Shown here in pieces: positions 41,481 through 54,949 of a stretch of 64,000 nt of DNA. Numbering within the stretch: position 1 is the first letter of the stretch; each line of letters begins with the position of its first letter. A model generated the notes under the pieces. The model saw nothing but the letters and a program-made list of their open reading frames with translations. It had not been told where the DNA came from and made no database searches. The DNA is from Marchantia polymorpha subsp. ruderalis (lineage: Eukaryota; Streptophyta; Marchantiopsida; Marchantiales; Marchantiaceae): positions 5,312,501 through 5,376,500 of the forward strand of contig AP031352.1 of assembly GCA_037833965.1 (NCBI GenBank), read 5' to 3'. Position numbers and translations under genes: made by a program.

Positions 41481-44399
41481 AAGATATGGCTTGCAATCGG
41501 CTACATATCTAACAACCTATATAATAAGTTACATTAGATTCTATAACGTTCAAAGTAGTATAGCCCACAAATCTTCACATAATCTTGGATTACCGTTTAC
41601 TCATGTGACTATAGTTCTTCTCATGCGTATTTGGAATTAAATCTCGAGAATGGAGTTTTAAATTTTCTTAATATTATATGTTTATTAATGTATGTCTTTA
41701 TAAACTTAGACAAGGACAAATGTGTTATTTGGATAATTCTTATACGGAAATTTATGTATGTGCATCTTATAATACCCTCATGCATCACCGCTCTCGTGCT
41801 ATACATGGAGAAAGTGTAAATTGGAGTGTGATGATTGGAGATGTAAGCAACTCGAAACTTGTGACCGTAGTCAATTCACACTGTCGGGTGACTGGTGGAA
41901 ACTTGTGAGAAAGGAACTGGATAATATTAAGGTCCACAGTCAGTCAATCAGGGAGCTACATGCATGTGTGGCCGCTGGTACCACTTCCAAAGCACGATTT
42001 TGGATTCCACCCTAGGCTAACGTTGCATCTTTTCACAAAAGCTTTCAACTTTGAATTATTGCTATGCATTCAACAAAGTCGAGTGACTCACCATTGAGTT
42101 AGTAAGAAACATAGATGTTTGTGCACTTACTCTTGCGTTCTCGAGATTCAAATTGATTATGATATCTACTCCCAAAATACTTAGTGTTCCCGCGCTTTTC
42201 ACTTTAGTGTCAAACAAATTCAATTAATTTCATGATATTATTTTTTTATAATTTATATCTACCTAAAGAGTTTTATTCTAACTCAATTTATTGGGATGTA
42301 TAAATAAAGTTAATTACAATTATTTCATCTTAATATAAATTCAGTTATTGTATTTTACATTTATTTTTAAATAATCTTGTCAAAATTCATTTATCTCTTA
42401 ATGATTGTTACATTATATATATAAAATTTTGAAAATATACTTAGAATATATCCTATTATGAATAATATGGACATTATTATCTTACATGCTATAATGAAAT
42501 CTTTTACATCATATTTTAATTATTTAATTAAAAAAATATTTTAAATACAATTTATCTCTAAATTTATATCCAATAAATTATCTTACATATATAAGTATAT
42601 GTTTATTCATATTTCAGTAAATAATTTATATATTATTTATTTTCCGGAGGACCGAGGTATATCCAAAAATGTAATGGGTGACAGATCAGTCATAAGTACT
42701 CCGAGGGATACACTGAACAAACCTCATTTTTGGTAAAAAACCTAAAAAAGTAATAGGAATTTTTCTCATATTTTAAAAATTTTCTTCATGTATCATTTTG
42801 TTATGATTATGTTCCAAATAGTTAATTTTGTTATGGTTCAAATATCAATTAATTTTATTTTTTATTGATGATAGTTGATCTTAAATTTTTTCATTATGTC
42901 ATTTTCACTTGTTGTAAAAATTACAACAAATAAACACCAATCACATTACTTTGTGTCTATTAACTCCTCATATATGTGGCTCAATTAGAAGTGTATTCCT
43001 TGAAATGAAAAAATTTCTTAAATGTTATAGCACTTTTTTACATCGTAATTTACAATATATAATTTTGATTTTGTTGTCAAAAAATAAATCCAATTTAAAA
43101 TGTTGTCATTTCATATTTCACCTAGATAAATCAAATTTCAAAAATTACATGCAAAGAAGTAATCAAATATATCGATGATTTATAGTTTACAATAAGTGGA
43201 TCAAGTAAGAATTTTTATAATGATAAATTTTTATATCGAACAGTGATACTCCATGCTTTCATACATTAATTAATATTATTACATTCTAGTCTACATCTTA
43301 CAATCGTTTCATAATTAAAATTAAAAAAATTTGAAACAATCAATAAGTATTGGCTTGTTTTTATATGAACTATTTCACCTAGAAATAAATAAATTTCATC
43401 TTGAAAATTTTTTTAATTTGAAGTAGAAATTGTATAGACAATCAATCAATTTACAATTTAAACCATTAGTTTTGTAGTTATTATCATCTTTTAGCATTCA
43501 TACAGAGTCAATACACTCTTAAAAAAAACAAAGACACTACTTATAAACAAAAGATATTTTCCTGATCACTCTTCAAGAAACAATAATAATTTTTTTCTAA
43601 TAAAACATTCAATTTACTATCTAATCTACACTAATATAGTTAAGTTACATTTGCGCATACCGTGATTCATGGTCCACTTGTTGTTCCATGAAAATTCATT
43701 GAACTTTAACAACAACTCCAAAAAATAGATACAACTCAAATCTACTTACTCAAGAGAACAAGAGATAAAAATGTGATAGAAAAGAATTCATTTGGTTGAT
43801 TTATGTTGACGAATAACATTTTTAGAGATTCAAGTCATAATCTATGTCTACCTAATAGTTATTCTTTGTAAAAAACTAAAGTATCAATTATTATTATCTT
43901 TAAAACAATAATCTCACACATTGCTAATAATTCAAAGAAAACTTTATTAATTATTATGATTTACCATGATATATATATATATGAAATATAGTTGTGTTGA
44001 AAATACCTATTTAAAGTAATTTGCTTAAATTATTTATATTTGAGAGCAACCAAAATAGCTATGATTAAAAAACTAAAATATTTATTACTATTTTTCTTTT
44101 GTGAAAACAACCGTTCCACATAAACCATTTCAAAATTGTGAAACAACTTTGCGAACACTACACGGTATAATAATATTTTTTGAACCTATCAAAATGCACT
44201 CTTATTGGAAAAAAATTTCCCTTTATATCTAAAACTTGAATTGAGCAATTTGAATAAATTGCTTGCATCACATATAAGTCTAATAAAAAAATATGAAGTT
44301 TACTAAAGTGAACTAAACTAAAATTATTAAGTAAAATTAGCTTATCTATTTTTAATGAGATTGGCTTGAACGTTTTATCATGAGTTTTGTTTGTGATTA
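41481..44399. other. AT-rich block, left flank of the retrotransposon
   Basis: Very AT-rich DNA with no open frame of interest. It lies on the 3' side of the minus-strand gypsy pol remains, so a decayed 3' LTR is expected here. I found no LTR ends or target-site duplication by eye. Confidence 0.4.
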
Positions 44400-44619
44400 C
44401 TTGTTCTCGTTCCAAACGTACAACTAATTACATCCATGTTTGTTCTTTACTTTCAAGTGTATAATATTTTATCTTAAACTTTAGTCAACAAACATACTTT
44501 ACTCCATGCTCACCCTTAATGAAAAATCTTAGATTCAATTAGAAATAACAAGTGTTTTTTAAATACCAAAAAGTAAAAGATCCGAACTTTAATTTTTTTG
44601 TAATTTAAATTATAGTCAT

Positions 44620-45880
44620 ACATAGAAACGAATAAATCTACATCCTAATCTTTATTGTGCATCGCAACAATCTTGTCGAGTATATTATCAATCATACTAT
44701 TAGTTCATTCAGTGAGCCTATTTGCCTTAGGATGATATGTAATAATCTTGCAATGTTAGAACCAATACATGGTGGTCATCTACTCCGCTCTTTGATTCAA
44801 AAAATGATTTATTCTGTCATTCAAAAATTTCAAATATGATCAACATTTTCTTGTATGAAAACTTGGCTTTTGTCTTTGCATCATTTTTTATTGTGGATTT
44901 AATCTTCGCCTATTTAGTGCAATTGTTTATATTTTTTTTTTCTCTTGATAATAGCAATAATATGTCTAATGGAATCAATACTCCATTTTTCAAACGGAAT
45001 CAAGTGTAGAATTGAAGTAAACTAATAAAAGTTAATTTTTATGTCTTTTACAAGCATAATAACCCTTAATAAATTGATGAACATACTTGTGTATTATGTG
45101 CAATCCATACCATACATCCAATATTTTCTTAGTTGTGTTTGTTGAAGCAAAACGTCCACGAGCATACTCCTCATGTAGAGTCATCATTATACTCATACTT
45201 CTTGTTTCTCTAAGCACGATCTCAACTTGTCATCTATTACTTCTTTGTGCAAAACCATGTTTATCAACAAATCATATCAAAAATTTTTATGAATACACTT
45301 GTTAACTCTTGATACATCTTCTTAATTATGATCACATTGTACAAAAAATCAATGATATAACCAAATCATGTGGACTGAAAAAATGCCACTTGAAAAAAAC
45401 TCCATCTAAAAATCTATCATCAATTTTTTTTATTATACTTTAATTTGTTAATCTTAGAAAAATTATCAACGTTAATATGTTGATTATCAAATCTCGTATT
45501 TACCTCATAGTTGAATTTTTGAAGAAGTAACATCTATCTAGATATTCTATTTTGAAAATTAGGCTTATTCATCATGTACTCAAGGGCATTATGATATGTA
45601 TAAAATATCACTTAATACTACATCAAATAATGTTCAAATTTTATTGCAAGAGTAAATGATGTTCCGAACTACTTTATTATTATGAAAGTAGTTCTTCTCA
45701 ACTTTAGCCTACTGATCAAAAGAATATGATGATATTTGTCGTGCTCATCAAACTTGTTCAAAAGAACACCTATGCAAAAGTCCGACACATCTATAAAGAC
45801 ATAAAAGTCCTCGCTCCAATTAAACATCATTAGGATATACATTTAACTATTCGTTGATTCAAATCATTAAAGCTTTGCAT
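44620..45880 (-). pseudogene. Gypsy RNase H and integrase fragment
   Basis: This continues pol beyond the insertion. RNase H landmarks (FIDVSDFCIGVLLNKF) are followed by the H2C2 zinc-binding region; its Cys pair is partly lost (YYACKRHKN). Scattered integrase-core pieces end in a YHPKAN-type box at about 44,680. Stops and frameshifts run throughout. Confidence 0.78.
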
Positions 45881-46389
45881 CTTAGTATGTACCATATTAC
45901 CATCAACATTAATTGGATATTTTAAAAAATGAACTTTTTTGTTAGTAATTGGATTTGGAGAAACAATTGGAAAAATCATTTCACTATATTTTTTTCTTGG
46001 AATCGAACCTATTATTAAAATAATTTTTTTATCATTACCGTAAGGTTGAAAAAAAATTATCAATCTTTTCTTTCATTTCAATAGGAATTTGATTTGAAGT
46101 AACTAATTCAAAATCTTATGTTACAATAAGAATTGCTCCAACATTAAAATTTTTTTTTTTACCATTAGCAAGTACTTGTTATATTTGCATATCATAAATA
46201 TATCAAATTTACAATTTGGACTAAAGAAATTGTGGTATTGAAACAAAGTTAGCATTTGAATTTTGGGAGTGTAGTGCATAGAGCTACATGAAGGTGCTCT
46301 TTGCAATTTATGCGTTCACACTTCAGGAAGACCAAAGAACATCTTTGCGAAGGGGATAATTGTTGGTCTTGATAATTGTTAATTGCTCT

Positions 46390-46777
46390 GGAATTTTGTA
46401 ATGAAAATTTGGTACAAAGATCAGAAGAAGCTGACGTAGGAATGCACATGAGCAACTTTTGGATCATATAGTATATGGTCTGCTATGGAATTTTGTAATG
46501 AAAATTTGGTACAAAGATCAGAAGAAGCTGGTGCAGGAATGCACATGAACAACTTTTGTATCATACAGTATATGGTCTCCTATGGAATTTTATAATGAAA
46601 ATTTGGTACAAAGATCAGAAGAAGTTGGTGCAGGAATGCACATGAACAACTTTTGTATCATACAGTATATGGTCTACTATGGAATTTTATAATGAAAATT
46701 TGGTACAAAGATCAGAAGAAGCTGGTGCAGGAATGCACATGAACAACTTTTGGATCATACAGTATATGGTCTGCTAG
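46390..46777. repeat. Tandem repeat type A, 4 copies of 97 bp
   Basis: Copies start at 46,390, 46,487, 46,584 and 46,681, each opening with GGAATTTT(G/A)TAATGAAAAT and containing GGTACAAAGATCAGAAGAAG. Copies differ at a few positions. The array passes directly into type B. Confidence 0.92.
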
Positions 46778-47357
46778 GGAATTTTATAATGAGAATATAG
46801 AATCAATGTATGGACGCATGAAGGATTTTTTTCATGGTTGACACAAAAATACACATGAGCAACGTTTGGATCATACGATATATGGTCTGCTAGGGAATTT
46901 TGTAATAAGAATATAGAATCAATGTATGGACGCATGAATGATTTTTTTCAGGATTGACGCAAGAATGCACATGAGCAACGTTTGGATCATTCGATATATG
47001 GTCTGCTAGGGAATTTTGTAATAAGAATATAGAATCAATATATGGACACATGAATGATTTTTTTCAGGATTGACGCAAGAATGCACATGAGCAACGTTTG
47101 GATCATTCGATATATGGTCTGCTAGGGAATTTTGTAATAAGAATATAGAATCAATATATGGACACATGAATGATTTTTTTCATGATTGACGCAAGAATGC
47201 ACATGAGCAACGTTTGGATCATTCGATATATGGTCTGCTAGGGAATTTTGTAATAAGAATATAGAATCAATGTATGGACACATGAATGATTTTTTTCATG
47301 ATTGACGCAAGAATGCACATGAGCAACGTTTGGATCATTCGATATATGATCTGTTAG
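46778..47357. repeat. Tandem repeat type B, 5 copies of 116 bp
   Basis: Copies start at 46,778, 46,894, 47,010, 47,126 and 47,242. They share both ends with type A (GGAATTTT... and GCACATGAGCAAC...TATATGGTCTGCTA). The middle is replaced by a longer segment containing ATAGAATCAATGTATGGAC and a T-run. A partial type-A-like copy follows from 47,358 to about 47,400. Confidence 0.92.
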
Positions 47358-47399
47358 GGAATTTTGTAATGAGAATTGGGTACAAAGATTAGAAGAAAC

Positions 47400-48832
47400 T
47401 ACTTGGCTTTATTTCAAATAAGAGGAAAGATCAATGTGTGATTGATGTGATCACCAAAACAATATCTATACTCAATGTCCTTAATACTTGGTCTCATGGC
47501 TATGCAGGCCCCGCATTATTGGGCTCTACATCAAAGCCAAATAGAAGGCATTTTGTAAATTGGAATCAAAAGTATACATGAGTGCTTCTATCTATTTCTA
47601 CAAACATCAAGTACACCTCAATCTCTTTGGTTATATATATTACATATATTGGTAGCATTTGTATATCTAATTAACATTGCTTGTTTCATGTGTGTCTAGG
47701 TTCTTATTCTACAAAGGAAAGTGTATTCTAAAATCAATATTTGCATTTGGTAAAGCGTATGACCAATGTTTGGGCATACGTTTTGGTGGAATACGAGGTG
47801 AAATTAAAGAGCTCTTTGATAAAGGCCCTTCATGACAAATATAAGACTTAAATGAGTATCTAGTCCGTTCATGAGAAGTTGCACATATTGAGGTTAAAGA
47901 TGATCATCATGACACATTCAACCCTACAGATTTTACTTAAAATTGTCATTTCAATGTCATTGATGCAATTTGCGTGGCCATGCAACTCTATGAAGCTAAC
48001 TAGCCGTACCCGTTCTTTGTTTTATCTGATACAGACAGCCTTTTAGAAAAAACAACAAAGATTACTGATTTGAACGAGGAAGAAAAGACCAAGCTTGCTC
48101 TCCATACTCAATGGCTAAAGTACTTTTTTGATAAAAATTCATGTATGATCAAAGTGATAGAGCTAGAGTTCCGACATTGCATTAGACGTATCAAGTAGTC
48201 TCACAAAGCATGGATCAGTGGTAGAATACTTTCTATTGCACACATGTGGCGTACATCCATGCTAGAAAAGCCCAACTCATCATTCAGGAAATTGAATTGG
48301 CTTGAAAAGTTAGTATGCAATAAACGTCGTAAGCCATAGAGAGTACTTGAAACAGGAAAAAGATTTAGAGCTCCAATCGCAAATTTAAGAAAGGTAGAAG
48401 AGTATACTTTGCAACTCATATTGCGAGAAGAAAGTCAAAAGTTCAAAAAAACCTCAAAATCTAATCAAGCAATTACTCCAAGTAAGTGCAAATAGAGACA
48501 AACGCAAACGGTAAAAAGCTACGATCCTATGAGAGACGATCAATTTGACTCTTCCTCCCTAACTTGTCTGCTTGTGATGAATGAATGTTGTTTCAATATC
48601 CCAGTGAAATGAAATCATTTTGTCCAATTCCACATTTAAATGTCACCGTGCGAAGATTATCATCTAGAAATCATATACACCCCTTTTGTTAATACACGCA
48701 TCTCTGACACTATATGAATTGAATCCTGTTGAAAAGAATTTAGTTTATCCTAACGGTAAGACTTGTATTATAATTGCTCTTATTGCATGATAGAATAGAT
48801 ACAACAACAAAAGTCTGGATACTCAAGACTAA
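47400..48832 (+). pseudogene. Broken unrecognised open frames inside the insertion
   Basis: Plus-strand stretches with protein-like composition occur in different frames and are interrupted by stops, for example FFVLSDTDSLLEKTTKITDL and KTKLALHTQWLKYFFDKNSC near 48,010-48,150. A minus-strand frame at 48,201-48,419 overlaps. No transposase signature was recognised. Confidence 0.35.
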
Positions 48833-49379
48833 CAATTATCCCGCTCGCAAAGATGTTCTTCGGTCTTCCTGAAGTGTGAACGCATAAATTGCAGAGAGCA
48901 CCTTCATATAGCTCTGCGCACTACACTCTCAAAACTCAAATGCTAACTTTGTTTCAATACCACACTTTCTTTAGTCCAAATTGTAAATTTGGTATACTTA
49001 TGATATGCAAATATAACAAGTACTTGCTAATGGTAAAAAAAGTTCTTTAAATGTTGGAGAAATTCTTATTGTACCATAAGATTTTGAATTAGTTACTTCA
49101 AATCAAATTACTCCTGAAATGAAAGAAAAAATTGTTAATTTTTTTTAACCTCACAGTAATGATAAAATAAATATTTTAATAATAGGTTCGATTCCAAGAA
49201 AAAAAATATAGTGAAATGATTTTTCCAATTATTTTTCCAGATTTAATTACTAACAAAAAAGTTCATTTTTTTAAATATCCAATTAATGTTGGTCATAATA
49301 TGGTGCATGCAAGTCAATGAAAGTGACACTCTAGCAAAATGTATAATGACTAGCATGTAACAGCTCCTGAAGCTTAATC

Positions 49380-50330
49380 ATCTCTTGACTTAAGTAACAA
49401 TGATATGGAATAAAATGACTAATCATACTATCATCTTATCTTACTCCATCTCAATAATTCTTTTGGATATTTTATGACCTAGAAGAATTTAATCTTTCAC
49501 AGCAAAATTGCATTTGACTTGGTATAACTTTAGATCAATTTTCTTATAGTGTTGAAATGTTTATTTCAAGTAATCAATGTGATCAGTATTTATATCAAAC
49601 ACAACAAAATCATTAATCAAAACTTTCAATTAATTTTACAAAAGTCATGAAAAATATTCATCATTGATATTTGAAACATACCTTGGATATTGCATAATCT
49701 AAATGACATTTGTTGATAGTCAAACACTTTTCATTTTGTTGTAAATGAACTATTCAATTGTTAAGTCTTTTTTTATCAAAGTTGATTATTTCCAAATTTA
49801 CCATCTATAAAATTACAGAGCTTGTGACCAGCCACTGTATCAATAGTCAAATCAAAACCAAAAAAAACTAATATTACTTCCTAGTGTCATCAATTAATTT
49901 TCTGAAATCTGACTGCATCTGATATTTAGTATTTCATTTGTATCAGATTTCATAAATATCATCGTTAGAGTAGACATTCATTCATTATTAAAAATTGGAT
50001 ATATGTAACTAGCTTCAAGCAACCTTTTGATTTCTTCCTTCACTTTTAAAAAGTAATTAGTATCCATATGATGTTGGCTTTGTTTGATTGTTTTTCTTCC
50101 AACATTAAATCAATCATAAGTTGACTTAGCTTAGGATTCATAGATGTGATATCTTTATTGTTCCAAGTAAAGATGTCTAAGTATTCAGCAAGCAGCACAG
50201 TATGCACTTCTATTCACATGTTTTCAAACCATACTATAGTTTGAAGTCTTTGACCTCTTTTTCTGATATTTTTCCGTATTGCTCCGACTTGATTACATCA
50301 ATATTGTTTTTCACTTTCAAATTTAAGCTC
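49380..50330 (-). pseudogene. Gypsy reverse transcriptase fragment, inactive
   Basis: The RT fingers and palm are readable only by changing frame and passing stops. The active-site box, normally an aromatic or hydrophobic residue followed by Asp-Asp, reads LINDFVVFD near 49,590-49,620, so the first catalytic Asp is Asn. It is then followed by the usual gypsy stretch (KIDLKLYQVKCNFAVKD). It ends where the right arm of the insertion begins. Confidence 0.75.
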
Positions 50331-50650
50331 TCCTTAACTTAAATTATCATAGATAAAAACATACTTCTTGATCTGCAATTTTCCTTTGTAATAAATTTCC
50401 TTGCTTGTTGAAACTGATTTCTCTTTACTCTCTTGCACCATCTTGAGATCAGACTTACTCGCTTCTGATATTTGTATTGTTTCAACAACTATATTGCATG
50501 TTATTATGAAGTATGTTGTTGTTAGCCGATTGATAATTTCCTTGCAAAATCTTTCCATAATCAATCATATATGCATCATCAATCTCTGAATCGTCTGGAA
50601 AGTTTTGATCATACTACTCACTAATTTGAGTTGTCTTTCCTTTAGTTTTC

Positions 50651-53600
50651 AATTTTTTCCAAGACACTATATTTGGTTTTTATTCTAATCTATGTGAAAA
50701 TGTAACTATGTATCTGACTATTATTTTTGAAAGATTATTGATAAATTTAATTAAATTTATGACATATGAAATGATTGTAACAATAAAATTATTGATTGTA
50801 ATAATAAAATTTTATAATTCTGATGTAAACTAATATTATGTAATTTGAATTTATATGAAATATATATAAATTTTAAATTATAATTAAAATTTTAAAGCTA
50901 ATTTATATTTTTAATTATATAAGGTGACTACAAGTTTTTTATATGACAAAATTTCAAAATAAAAAATGGTTTGTAATCAGTCATAATATAAAAATGGCCA
51001 TATTCGAATAAATTATTTTTAAATAAAATTTTTTATTATATTTGATATAACAATTGATTTTATAAATACAAATTATTTATTTATAAATTTCAAATGTATT
51101 TCAAATTTTAAAATATTATAATTAAAACGTATGCATTTATAGTAAATAATTTGATAAAGCAGTTGCTTTATATTATTGATACAATCATATGATGTAATCC
51201 ATGCAAAAAAATAAACCATTTATTATTTTTCAACATAATTTAATTTTCATAAAAGAATTATTAACAATTTTACGTCACATCATCATTAATGTTTCAATAC
51301 TTATTTTAGGTTGAGTATAATTCACTATAGGTAATAGATACTAATGAAAGTCTTCTATCAAACAAACGAACATATTCTTGTCGAACAAAGCTCTTGAAAC
51401 GCATGCGAGCACTTCTGAAAAAGAGTTTTAAAATGTAAAGTTTAATAACAAGTCATTCATAAAAACAATTTTTTGGAATCAAAAAACTCTTTAAACAATA
51501 TATACGGATAAAAAAAACATACAATTTGAATAGCTGCCCAATAAGTATTTTCAACAATCATAATGACAATAATGAGCAAGAAGAAACAAAAAATGCAAGT
51601 TGAGTTTAAATTTATCAATGTCAAGGTATACATAACAATGTTTATCCCAAAATTAACTATTTTAAGTCGCATTCTATGTTAATTTGTTTAAATTGCAATT
51701 TACAATATTAAGTAGCATTTGGTCTCAATTCTGAATTGACTCCAAAAATGGTAGTTGAATGAAATGCATTATATAATTATTTGTCCGATGAACTTGGTCT
51801 AAATTCATTATTAATTTGATAAAAAATTTAACATCTTCATTTATAATTATACAACAGTTACATTTTTTTAAATATACATACTTGTATATAAGTATATAAT
51901 TGTTTTAGCACAATTCACCTAAATCATTATGAATATATAGATACATTATGATTTTAACAATTTTTAGCTTGAACAAATAAAAGCTCAATCTACTATTATA
52001 CTACTTTCAATTAAAATTGAATTTTCTACAAATACAATAAATTAAGTATGGTCACGAATAACATTTATGTGGTATATATAGAACATTTTTGATCTATTGA
52101 TACCAAGTATTCTTGTTCAATCTTCAAAAGTGAAACATCATGTTTTTGTGATTACCAAGTTGATTTTTGATACATTTAAATTTTTATTTTGATCAAATAA
52201 ATAAAAACATAATACAATTGTAAGTATATATTTTGTTTAATGTGCAAAGTGTAATAAAATTTAAATAAAATATTTAATGAAAATTTAAGAATGAAATTTA
52301 CATTATATAATTATAAATATTAATCAATATTGATTTATTTTTTAAAAACTAATTTTCTTGCAAAATTTCCAATGTAGGTTAATCTTGTTTGTGGTGTAAG
52401 TTAATGAAACACTAGTTCACAAAAAGTATAACAACATATAAGTTTGATCACAATTGAATCAAGACATCTTATCATGTTAACATTTTTCACGATTTACTCA
52501 TTTCACAAATTGCGTAGATATATTTCAACTAAATATGAAAATCATTGAATTTTTACAAAAGCTTTCATTATAGAAAAAAATGTTTTTGCTTCACAAGACT
52601 AAGTGATGGAATGAATAGCTTGATGACGATTACACCTTTGCTATTGTAAGTATAATGTGACTACCTAGGTATATAGATGTTTTAATTCAAATCTGTCTTC
52701 ATTATTGATACAATGTTTAACTCAAAAGTTACCTTATCCAACATTTTGTCTTGTTATGGAAAAAATCTCTTGAACAAGAAGATAAACAATACTAGAATCT
52801 CTACTTAGTTCCATTATGATAAACATTTTCTAATCTAGATTTTCAAGTTTATGATAGTGAATATAAGATAGTTCAAACCGACATGTGAAACATGTCTTTG
52901 TAGAATAGATTTTGTGAAGAATGAGATGATGAGGTATAAAATTTATTGATAATATCATACCTTATTCTTATATGAGTGATTTTTACCTCAACTGGAACAT
53001 CAATTGCACAAGGGTTTTGCAAAGAGAAAAAGAAAAATCAAGAGCAACTTGATATGATTATTATTGCATGGAAAAAAGTAAGAGTAATGTGAAATAATAA
53101 CACAATATTGAGTCAAATTTGAATATGCACTATTTTGCTTTGCAACGTCATCTACTGCTTGGATGACTTGAAATAATCAAATCAAACTTTTGAATTTAAT
53201 GATATCTTGTTTATCAAATAAAAAAAAGGAAAAATATAATATAATTGAGATATCAATGTTTTGTTTATGATTTCAAATTTTTGGCAAACAAATTAATGTT
53301 GATATCAACGTATTGTTGTGAGATCAATTTAATTTATGCATGTTTATTAGAATAATAGAAATTTTTTTATTCAAATTTTAAATAAAAAATTGAAATTTTG
53401 GTATGTAAATACTATAGATGTGCATACTGATTACTTTTACTTAAAGTTAGGATTTTGAATAAACACTTGAAGTAGAAATGATTCAAGCGTAAAATCTGAA
53501 AACTTTCAATATTCCATCCACTTATTGTAAGTAATATTGGTCACTACCCTCATAAACTAAGAAAATCACGTGGAGAAGATAAACATGTTATTTCTAATAT

Positions 53601-53800
53601 CTTTGATTAGTGACAAGAAGATGTTGATGTGAGTAAAAAGTTCCATTTAATTCTGAAATGTTGTTTACTTGCAAAACCTCGTGAAATCAATAGAGTCTTG
53701 ACAGGATGAATCACGATTTCAGGGAGGTGTTCCATATCTTATAAGGAGTTCAGAATCTAATTTCTGGAGCTAAATTGGTGTTACGGCGTGATCAATACAT
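50651..53800. other. AT-rich block, right flank of the retrotransposon
   Basis: Extremely AT-rich with no usable open frame. It lies 5' of the minus-strand pol remains, so gag and the 5' LTR would be expected here. I could not recognise either. Confidence 0.4.
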
Positions 53801-54949
53801 GAGATGTAATAAAGTGTGATGCACCAAACCGAGCAATAATCAGTACTTGCAGTATATGCAGATCACTTACTGAATACAGAACTATGTACATTTTATATAC
53901 CATTTTCATGTATTGATTATGCTATGTAACATAGTTATTCCTGCCCAGCATTTGTCATGCAAATGATTGGTAAGTCACAATCCAAGACATGGGCAGTCTA
54001 GACTATAATTGTAATGGGCTGATTACCGTATGTAGTCAAAGTCTATCCCGAACGACACTTCTAGCCTCAGATGCAAATTAGGAATGCAGATACTTTGATA
54101 CCATTAATACCGGCTATTATATTGTAATAAATTCCAAAAGAACGAGTCGAACGAAGGAGTGGTGGACCTGGGTGTGAAGTAAGAGAGAAGCAAATGTGTG
54201 TGAAAGGGGTGATATACGTCGATGGACGCCAGGTCACGCAGAGGGCTACCGTACGAAGGGTCTGTACAGTACATGGGAGAGGTGTACGTGACCGGAGTAG
54301 CATCGGAGCGGAGCGGGGCGATCATAGCGAACGGAGTAGTCGAAGGAGGCCAGGTCACACCAGACGGAAAGTGACACACGGACGGAGGCGGAAGCAGAAA
54401 ATGAAAGAAAGAAGGAAAGAAAGGAGGAAAGATAGGAAGAGAGAGAGAGAAAGAAGGAAAGGAGAACGCTGAAGGCTGAAGCGAGCGTTTCCGCTGCATC
54501 TCTCTCTCACGTCTTCTTCCTCGTCCTGCTCCTCCCTCCTTCTCCTTCTGCTGCTGCTGCTGCTTGTGCACTACCGAGTGCGCGCGACGGGCTCGACACG
54601 AGCGTGTAGCCGAGGGGAGGGACATCGTAAATGTGATCTTGTCGCGCCTTCTTGTCCCACTCTGCAATTCGAGAGCAGCGGTAGGGAATTAGTGTCTGAT
54701 CCGGTCGCCTCTAGGTTCGGTCCGGGTGTTCATCGGTCCCAGAGGAGGTCTTTGATCGCTGCTGGGGTGTCTCGCAAGGCGGTCGGAAATCTGGGGTTGG
54801 TCGTGGAGAGATCTGTCGATCTGTTCGTCTATCAGGCGAGGGAGGCGCAGCGGCAGCGGTCCGAGACTGGATCTGTTGTTTTTCGGGCTCACACTCTCGG
54901 GTTGGAAGCGCGGATTTCATTTTTCGATGTGTGAGATTCGTGTTTGAGA
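53801..54949 (+). promoter_or_regulatory. Promoter and leader region of TWD40-1
   Basis: Composition shifts from AT-rich to GC-rich at about 54.15 kb. A purine (GA-rich) tract lies at about 54,395-54,465, followed by a pyrimidine-rich tract at about 54,497-54,560 that ends in a CTG-type triplet run. A plus-strand frame at 54,566-54,934 stops 16 nt before the TWD40-1 ATG and would be an upstream ORF if transcription starts before it. No clear TATA box was seen next to the GC-rich part. Confidence 0.4.

Follow-up and report, generated by a model that had tools for sequence, protein, structure and literature searches.

A dead gypsy pol sequence of Marchantia polymorpha subsp. ruderalis is interrupted by an insert with long inverted arms. 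The question raised by this locus is whether the insert is a transposon in its own right or the product of a rearrangement. The original prediction had named a foldback family, a Mutator-like family, and an inverted duplication by rearrangement as candidates. The window, that is, the whole stretch of 64,000 nucleotides that was analysed, was compared with itself, with protein profiles, and with the genome to which it belongs (241 Mb, nine contigs).

Layout of the insert and its site in gypsy pol

The insert consists of two ~480-bp arms around ~2.45 kb of other sequence. The features of the insert and of the gypsy sequence on either side are the following:

45087-45890, minus strand: dead gypsy pol flank, RNase H side (PF17917, E 1.1e-10)
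45891-46372, minus strand: left arm, 3' region of a Mutator-like element (MULE) in inverted copy (self-match, 92% to the right arm; gypsy comparison)
45896-46196, minus strand: decayed petA fragment in the left arm (tblastn with the petA-like frames of locus L009; PF16639, E 1e-10)
46371-46383, no strand assigned: arm/array junction, with the 10-bp stretch GATAATTGTT that repeats 46355-46364
46384-46796, plus strand: 97-bp unit, 4.3 copies, a frame-breaking duplication of a transposase exon
46727-47376, plus strand: 116-bp unit, 5.6 copies, an overlapping duplication of the same transposase exon
47377-48822, plus strand: 3' half of a MULE transposase gene plus the sequence beyond it, containing stops (own-genome matches)
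48823-49304, plus strand: right arm, MULE 3' region at the usual position, behind the transposase (self-match; family loci; gypsy comparison)
48987-49299, plus strand: decayed petA fragment in the right arm (tblastn with the petA-like frames of L009; PF16639, E 8.5e-11)
49305-50100, minus strand: dead gypsy pol flank, RT side (RVT_1 at the equivalent place in relatives L041 and L043)

In the self-comparison, positions 45887-46372 and 48823-49308 aligned as inverted copies that are 92% identical, with ungapped blocks of 324, 109, and 80 nt (92, 91, and 86%, respectively); the K2P distance between the arms was 0.087 over 479 columns. This inverted match scored 687 bits, while the maximum in 50 block-of-two shuffles of positions 44001-51000 was 42.8 bits. 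The two ~480-bp inverted arms and the two-type array that had been noticed in the sequence are thus confirmed. A sharply AT-rich block (42001-54000, G+C 23-33%) surrounds the gypsy sequence and the insert; the whole window has 41% G+C.

The PF17917 match was obtained with a 103-residue stretch of the left flank in which stops were read as X. This flank has 11 further matches in the genome (68-79% identical), and the right flank has 13 (66-84%). In the decayed right flank of the window itself, a Pfam scan of two short frames gave no RT domain; in both gypsy relatives scanned, the corresponding place has RT and then RNase H. From the 11 right-flank relatives (L041-L051), the six that match from the first base of the flank were compared with the window. 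In all six, which carry no insert, the two gypsy flanks adjoin, 28-33 bp apart. Since the flanks adjoin in the relatives, and RT is followed by RNase H there, the event was an insertion into gypsy pol, and the earlier placement between RT and RNase H was right. The left gypsy sequence ends at 45885 (three relatives) or 45890 (the other three) and resumes at 49305 (all six), so that the edges now lie at 45886 or 45891 and at 49304, near the predicted 45893 and 49310. The loss of the 28-33 bp of gypsy target that are absent at the insert may date from the insertion or be older. A target duplication, which the original prediction had proposed to look for at both ends, was not found against the six gypsy relatives: the best 11-bp match was 8/11 and was equalled by 70 of 300 random pairs. 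A GCAT similarity at the junctions was rejected as a target duplication, as gypsy relatives that lack the insert have both GCAT words too.

MULE and plastid sequences within the insert

The interior (47377-48822) has at least 41 matches in the genome, itself included, and is 75-83% identical to those at other places; this count is a lower bound from 40 scored candidates of 76, and many of the matches cover the first 1262 bp. Its match to locus L038 is 79.7% identical over 1414 bp. Just upstream of the corresponding sequence, relatives contain the MULE domain PF10551 (E 2.5e-12 in L028, E 2e-9 in L013). The window keeps the sequence 3' of this domain, and Pfam returned no match for one window interior frame, for three other frames of L028, or for six longer window open reading frames. 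The interior was rejected as a coding gene: every one of the six frames has stops, and the unit lengths, 97 and 116 bp, are not multiples of three. The insert is a dead object that has no intact frame and in which terminal repeats were not found. The Mutator-like assignment holds for the interior, by virtue of PF10551 in L028 and of the identity to family copies.

Both array units come from the transposase exon. The 97-bp unit is one continuous exon stretch of L028 (92%), and the 116-bp unit maps at 85-91% to an L028 exon stretch that overlaps the first by ~75 bp. Relatives match the array as one unit-sized piece per place, with a short neighbouring piece added at a few places. Tandem Repeats Finder detected no array of these units in 14 family loci (12 distinct places); four of the 14 have other arrays, outside the exon. 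The arrays are local duplications, neither satellite nor coding repeat.

The arm sequence is single in 12 of the 13 ten-kb loci retrieved with it, and an inverted pair occurs only in L010. In each of the 12 loci that hold both, the arm comes after the interior and has the same orientation. The right arm of the window thus has its usual position, and it is the left arm that is the additional, inverted copy. In a tree of six arm sequences (those of the 18 in the genome that were usable at full length), the two window arms pair with a support of 0.999, and their K2P distances to the other four are at least 0.155; being mutual closest relatives, they were produced by a single duplication. The original prediction had reasoned that arms and interior found elsewhere only within unrelated elements, or arms belonging to the gypsy family, would point to a local rearrangement. 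The 13 arm loci proved to be MULE copies (12) or petA alone (L017), and none belongs to the gypsy family, so that this expectation is borne out in part; the gypsy flanks and the arms match different places, which excludes the arms as a part of that family. The arms were also rejected as the MULE family's own terminal repeats, since the family repeat is another sequence and the arm is internal in relatives. The earlier difficulty in naming a class for the arms is explained by their nature: they are an internal MULE 3' segment with a plastid petA piece and not terminal repeats.

The outer ~300 bp of the two arms are a decayed coding sequence of cytochrome f, which is what the "protein-like frame" reported for the arms turned out to be in the PF16639 profile search. 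A 35-residue frame of the right arm matches 15 distinct PDB sequences, all of them cytochrome f (best E 4.6e-9). The petA piece of L009 is longer, and both Pfam cytochrome f domains are matched there; at L009:5270-5683, in a MULE copy on the 5.6-Mb contig C1, an open cytochrome f-like frame of 138 amino acids is present. In the window, stops and frameshifts do not support a working nuclear petA gene. Both arms stop at one identical petA position, and petA continues past this endpoint in L009, L010, L011, and L017. A genome search with the terminus of the insert, allowing up to three mismatches, gave two matches, both being the arms of the window insert. No match elsewhere in the genome crosses the inner arm/array junction (40 of 52 candidates scored).

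A whole-genome search for petA-like protein sequence gave 42 matches, corresponding to 37 places, 32 of which are in MULE copies. Twenty-six of the 37 lie within 4 kb downstream of a MULE interior match on the same strand; the further places in MULE copies are the left arm of the window (one) and L012-L016 (five, with partial interior matches). The remaining places are L017 and four without a MULE match nearby (C1:3552552, C2:480025, C2:28547197, and C6:20959690). At L017:4801-5202, petA extends further in the direction of its C-terminus, with no MULE interior match in 10 kb; this locus looks like an ordinary plastid-to-nucleus transfer. Counted from the MULE side, petA is nearby for 26 of the 41 interior matches and is lacking for 15, and no petA match was obtained in L018, L020, or L021, which look like full-length copies. 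In two copies, petA lies between terminal repeats: at 5313-5729 in L014 (repeats at 1270, 21 bp, and 9095, 25 bp) and at 4807-5124 in L015 (repeats at 1005, 24 bp, and 9204, 16 bp). Since 32 of 37 petA places are in MULE copies, the simplest reading of these sequences is that a plastid petA fragment seems to have been captured within the MULE family, in one or more events, and then amplified.

Origin of the insert

The target-site duplications of MULEs are 9-11 bp long. The family copy L018 has terminal inverted repeats of 132 bp (84% identical) and a putative 9-bp target duplication that matches at 8/9 positions, a level equalled by 9 of 300 random pairs. The family terminal repeat (TTTAGCTGCACAAAC...) was found in 10 of 15 long loci (L010, L013-L016, L018, L020, L021, L038, and L039; the matches in L038 and L039 are weak, E 0.023) and was absent in L009, L011, L012, L017, and L019. 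Three longer copies (L014, L015, and L018) are bounded by terminal repeats on both sides. Searched with a 25-base word of the repeat, the window gave just chance matches of 9-10 bases, and the insert was therefore filed as a MULE fragment and not as an intact member of the family. Some family members have moved or were copied fairly recently, as implied by the 98% identity of L038 and L039 over 4.2 kb. Beside two MULE copies, the stretches L011:249-2390 and L021:1-2140 are 99% identical and contain, by eye, long pol-like open frames; judging from these stretches, the sequence suggests that some retroelement copies may also have moved recently in the genome.

We read the insert as no transposon class of its own. 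It is probably a rearranged and dead MULE fragment that was integrated into gypsy pol by end joining and not by normal transposition. Of the origins proposed earlier, an inverted duplication by rearrangement fits the arms best, the left arm being an inverted copy of the MULE 3' region. In the course of such an event, a linear MULE fragment ending within the petA segment would have been copied or joined head to head, perhaps through template switching or a fold-back. Repair by polymerase theta or break-induced repair would be compatible with the 10-bp repeat at the inner junction, which may possibly be templated filler, as in templated end joining. The evidence for filler is weak: the two copies of GATAATTGTT lie 16 bp apart in AT-rich DNA, and several further 8-11 bp matches to the junction stretch were also found, so the repeat may be due to chance. 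Both outer ends of the insert would be one and the same fragment end, and the head-to-head product would have healed a break in gypsy. Slippage or unequal exchange, earlier or later than this, could have produced the arrays; the events cannot be put in order. Three observations weigh against end joining. Two arms that end at the same base are also typical of a real terminal-repeat element; the gypsy relatives are ~70% identical, so that the 28-33 bp could have been lost earlier from this gypsy copy; and five of the 15 family loci likewise have no terminal repeat, so the absence alone is not special.

The symmetric ends of the arms could also be those of a mobile non-autonomous element, in which the MULE 3' segment served as long terminal inverted repeats and which was moved into gypsy by the family transposase. 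L010, too, has an inverted arrangement of the same 3' region, and MULEs with duplicated long terminal repeats are known (PMC3310237). We regard such an element as improbable, since the family terminal repeat was not found in the window, there is no target duplication (relatives that lack the insert have both best 11-bp words as well), 28-33 bp of the target are missing, and the terminus has no second copy outside the insert. It is likewise unlikely that a full-length MULE jumped into gypsy and then lost both ends, with its 3' region being inverted and duplicated in place. The insert is indeed MULE sequence throughout, petA included, in a gypsy break, and longer copies such as L014, L015, and L018 do have terminal repeats at both ends; yet this history requires that the two sides were truncated independently, at an identical petA position and at the edge of gypsy. 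Given how common MULE copies are, two of them, or two fragments, might have become nested at a single gypsy site with opposite orientations, and L010, whose inverted arms are not mutual closest relatives, may be such a case; in the window, the close pairing of the arms argues for one duplication, which makes nesting highly improbable here.

In addition to the insert, which we take as a product of end joining, inverted arrangements of the 3' region were seen in the family. L010:3328-6542 (C3, ~17.31 Mb) consists of MULE 3' sequence with petA, arranged as an imperfect palindrome of 3.2 kb (84%). Its arms are 0.195 K2P apart and do not group in the tree, one of them being 0.125 from L009, which weakens L010 as a clean fold-back; since the arms are not mutual closest relatives, two abutting copies placed head to head are as likely. 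At the 3' end of L039 (1579-1651), a 73-bp palindrome has 35-bp perfect arms and a 3-bp loop, and L038 and L029 have different, non-palindromic sequence at this position. Altogether, such arrangements occur in three of 16 long stretches (13 arm loci, L038, L039, and the window), a fraction that is no rate, as the arm loci were chosen by arm matches. Other inverted repeats are present in family loci, e.g., L016, L017, and L018. Recurring fold-back of the MULE 3' region is possible but weakly indicated, L039 being the clean example. A wider scenario, in which the MULE family spread captured petA to dozens of nuclear sites while its 3' region folds back during (possibly failed) transposition, so that inverted-arm products could seed long-armed elements, with the window and L039 as two products and L010 perhaps as an old third, strikes us as quite unlikely.

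Relation to known elements and implications

With MULEs that have long terminal inverted repeats, the insert shares MULE transposase DNA in its interior; the MULE domain and terminal inverted repeats occur in its relatives, and the putative target duplication in L018. It differs from them in lacking the family repeats and a target duplication, and in having arms that are an internal 3' segment. Foldback elements have long inverted arms around a loop, and so does the insert. However, a foldback family comprises several dispersed copies with the same ends and target duplications, whereas one insert copy was found here, its terminus and arm/array junction occur at the window locus only, a target duplication is absent, and the arms are explained by MULE sequence. 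The earlier suggestion of a foldback family is therefore not supported. In MULEs with multiple long terminal inverted repeats (Ferguson and Jiang 2012, PMC3310237), it is the true terminal repeats that have been duplicated, and mostly in tandem. MULE end regions are duplicated in both cases; in the window, an internal 3' segment is duplicated, and in inverted orientation.

The petA-bearing family copies invite two further comparisons. Nuclear plastid DNA is known as NUPT. Like a NUPT, the petA fragment, judged from its clear cytochrome f homology, would be plastid gene sequence that decayed in a nuclear chromosome; unlike one, it appears to have been amplified by a transposon, the MULE-free L017 being the ordinary-looking case. 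Pack-TYPE elements are described as non-autonomous carriers of coding DNA (PMC8903248). The family copies L014 and L015 resemble Pack-MULEs in holding a petA fragment between terminal repeats, and the family differs in that the captured fragment is plastid DNA and is found in elements that also hold transposase sequence (e.g., L011, L038, and L039). In a limited search of open-access literature, we recognised no report of a plastid-carrying MULE; the terms plastid, chloroplast, and organelle do not occur in PMC13317346 or in PMC8903248.

Taken alone, the window insert looks like an ordinary one-off rearrangement; the novelty is at the level of the MULE family. The family suggests how chloroplast DNA may turn into dispersed repeats: a DNA transposon captures it and then amplifies it. 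Capture and amplification of petA would bias counts of organelle-to-nucleus transfer, because many petA pieces would be copies of one transfer. The decaying petA copies form a datable series. Should the 3' region prove to fold back repeatedly, the family would also help to test how inverted-arm elements are born.
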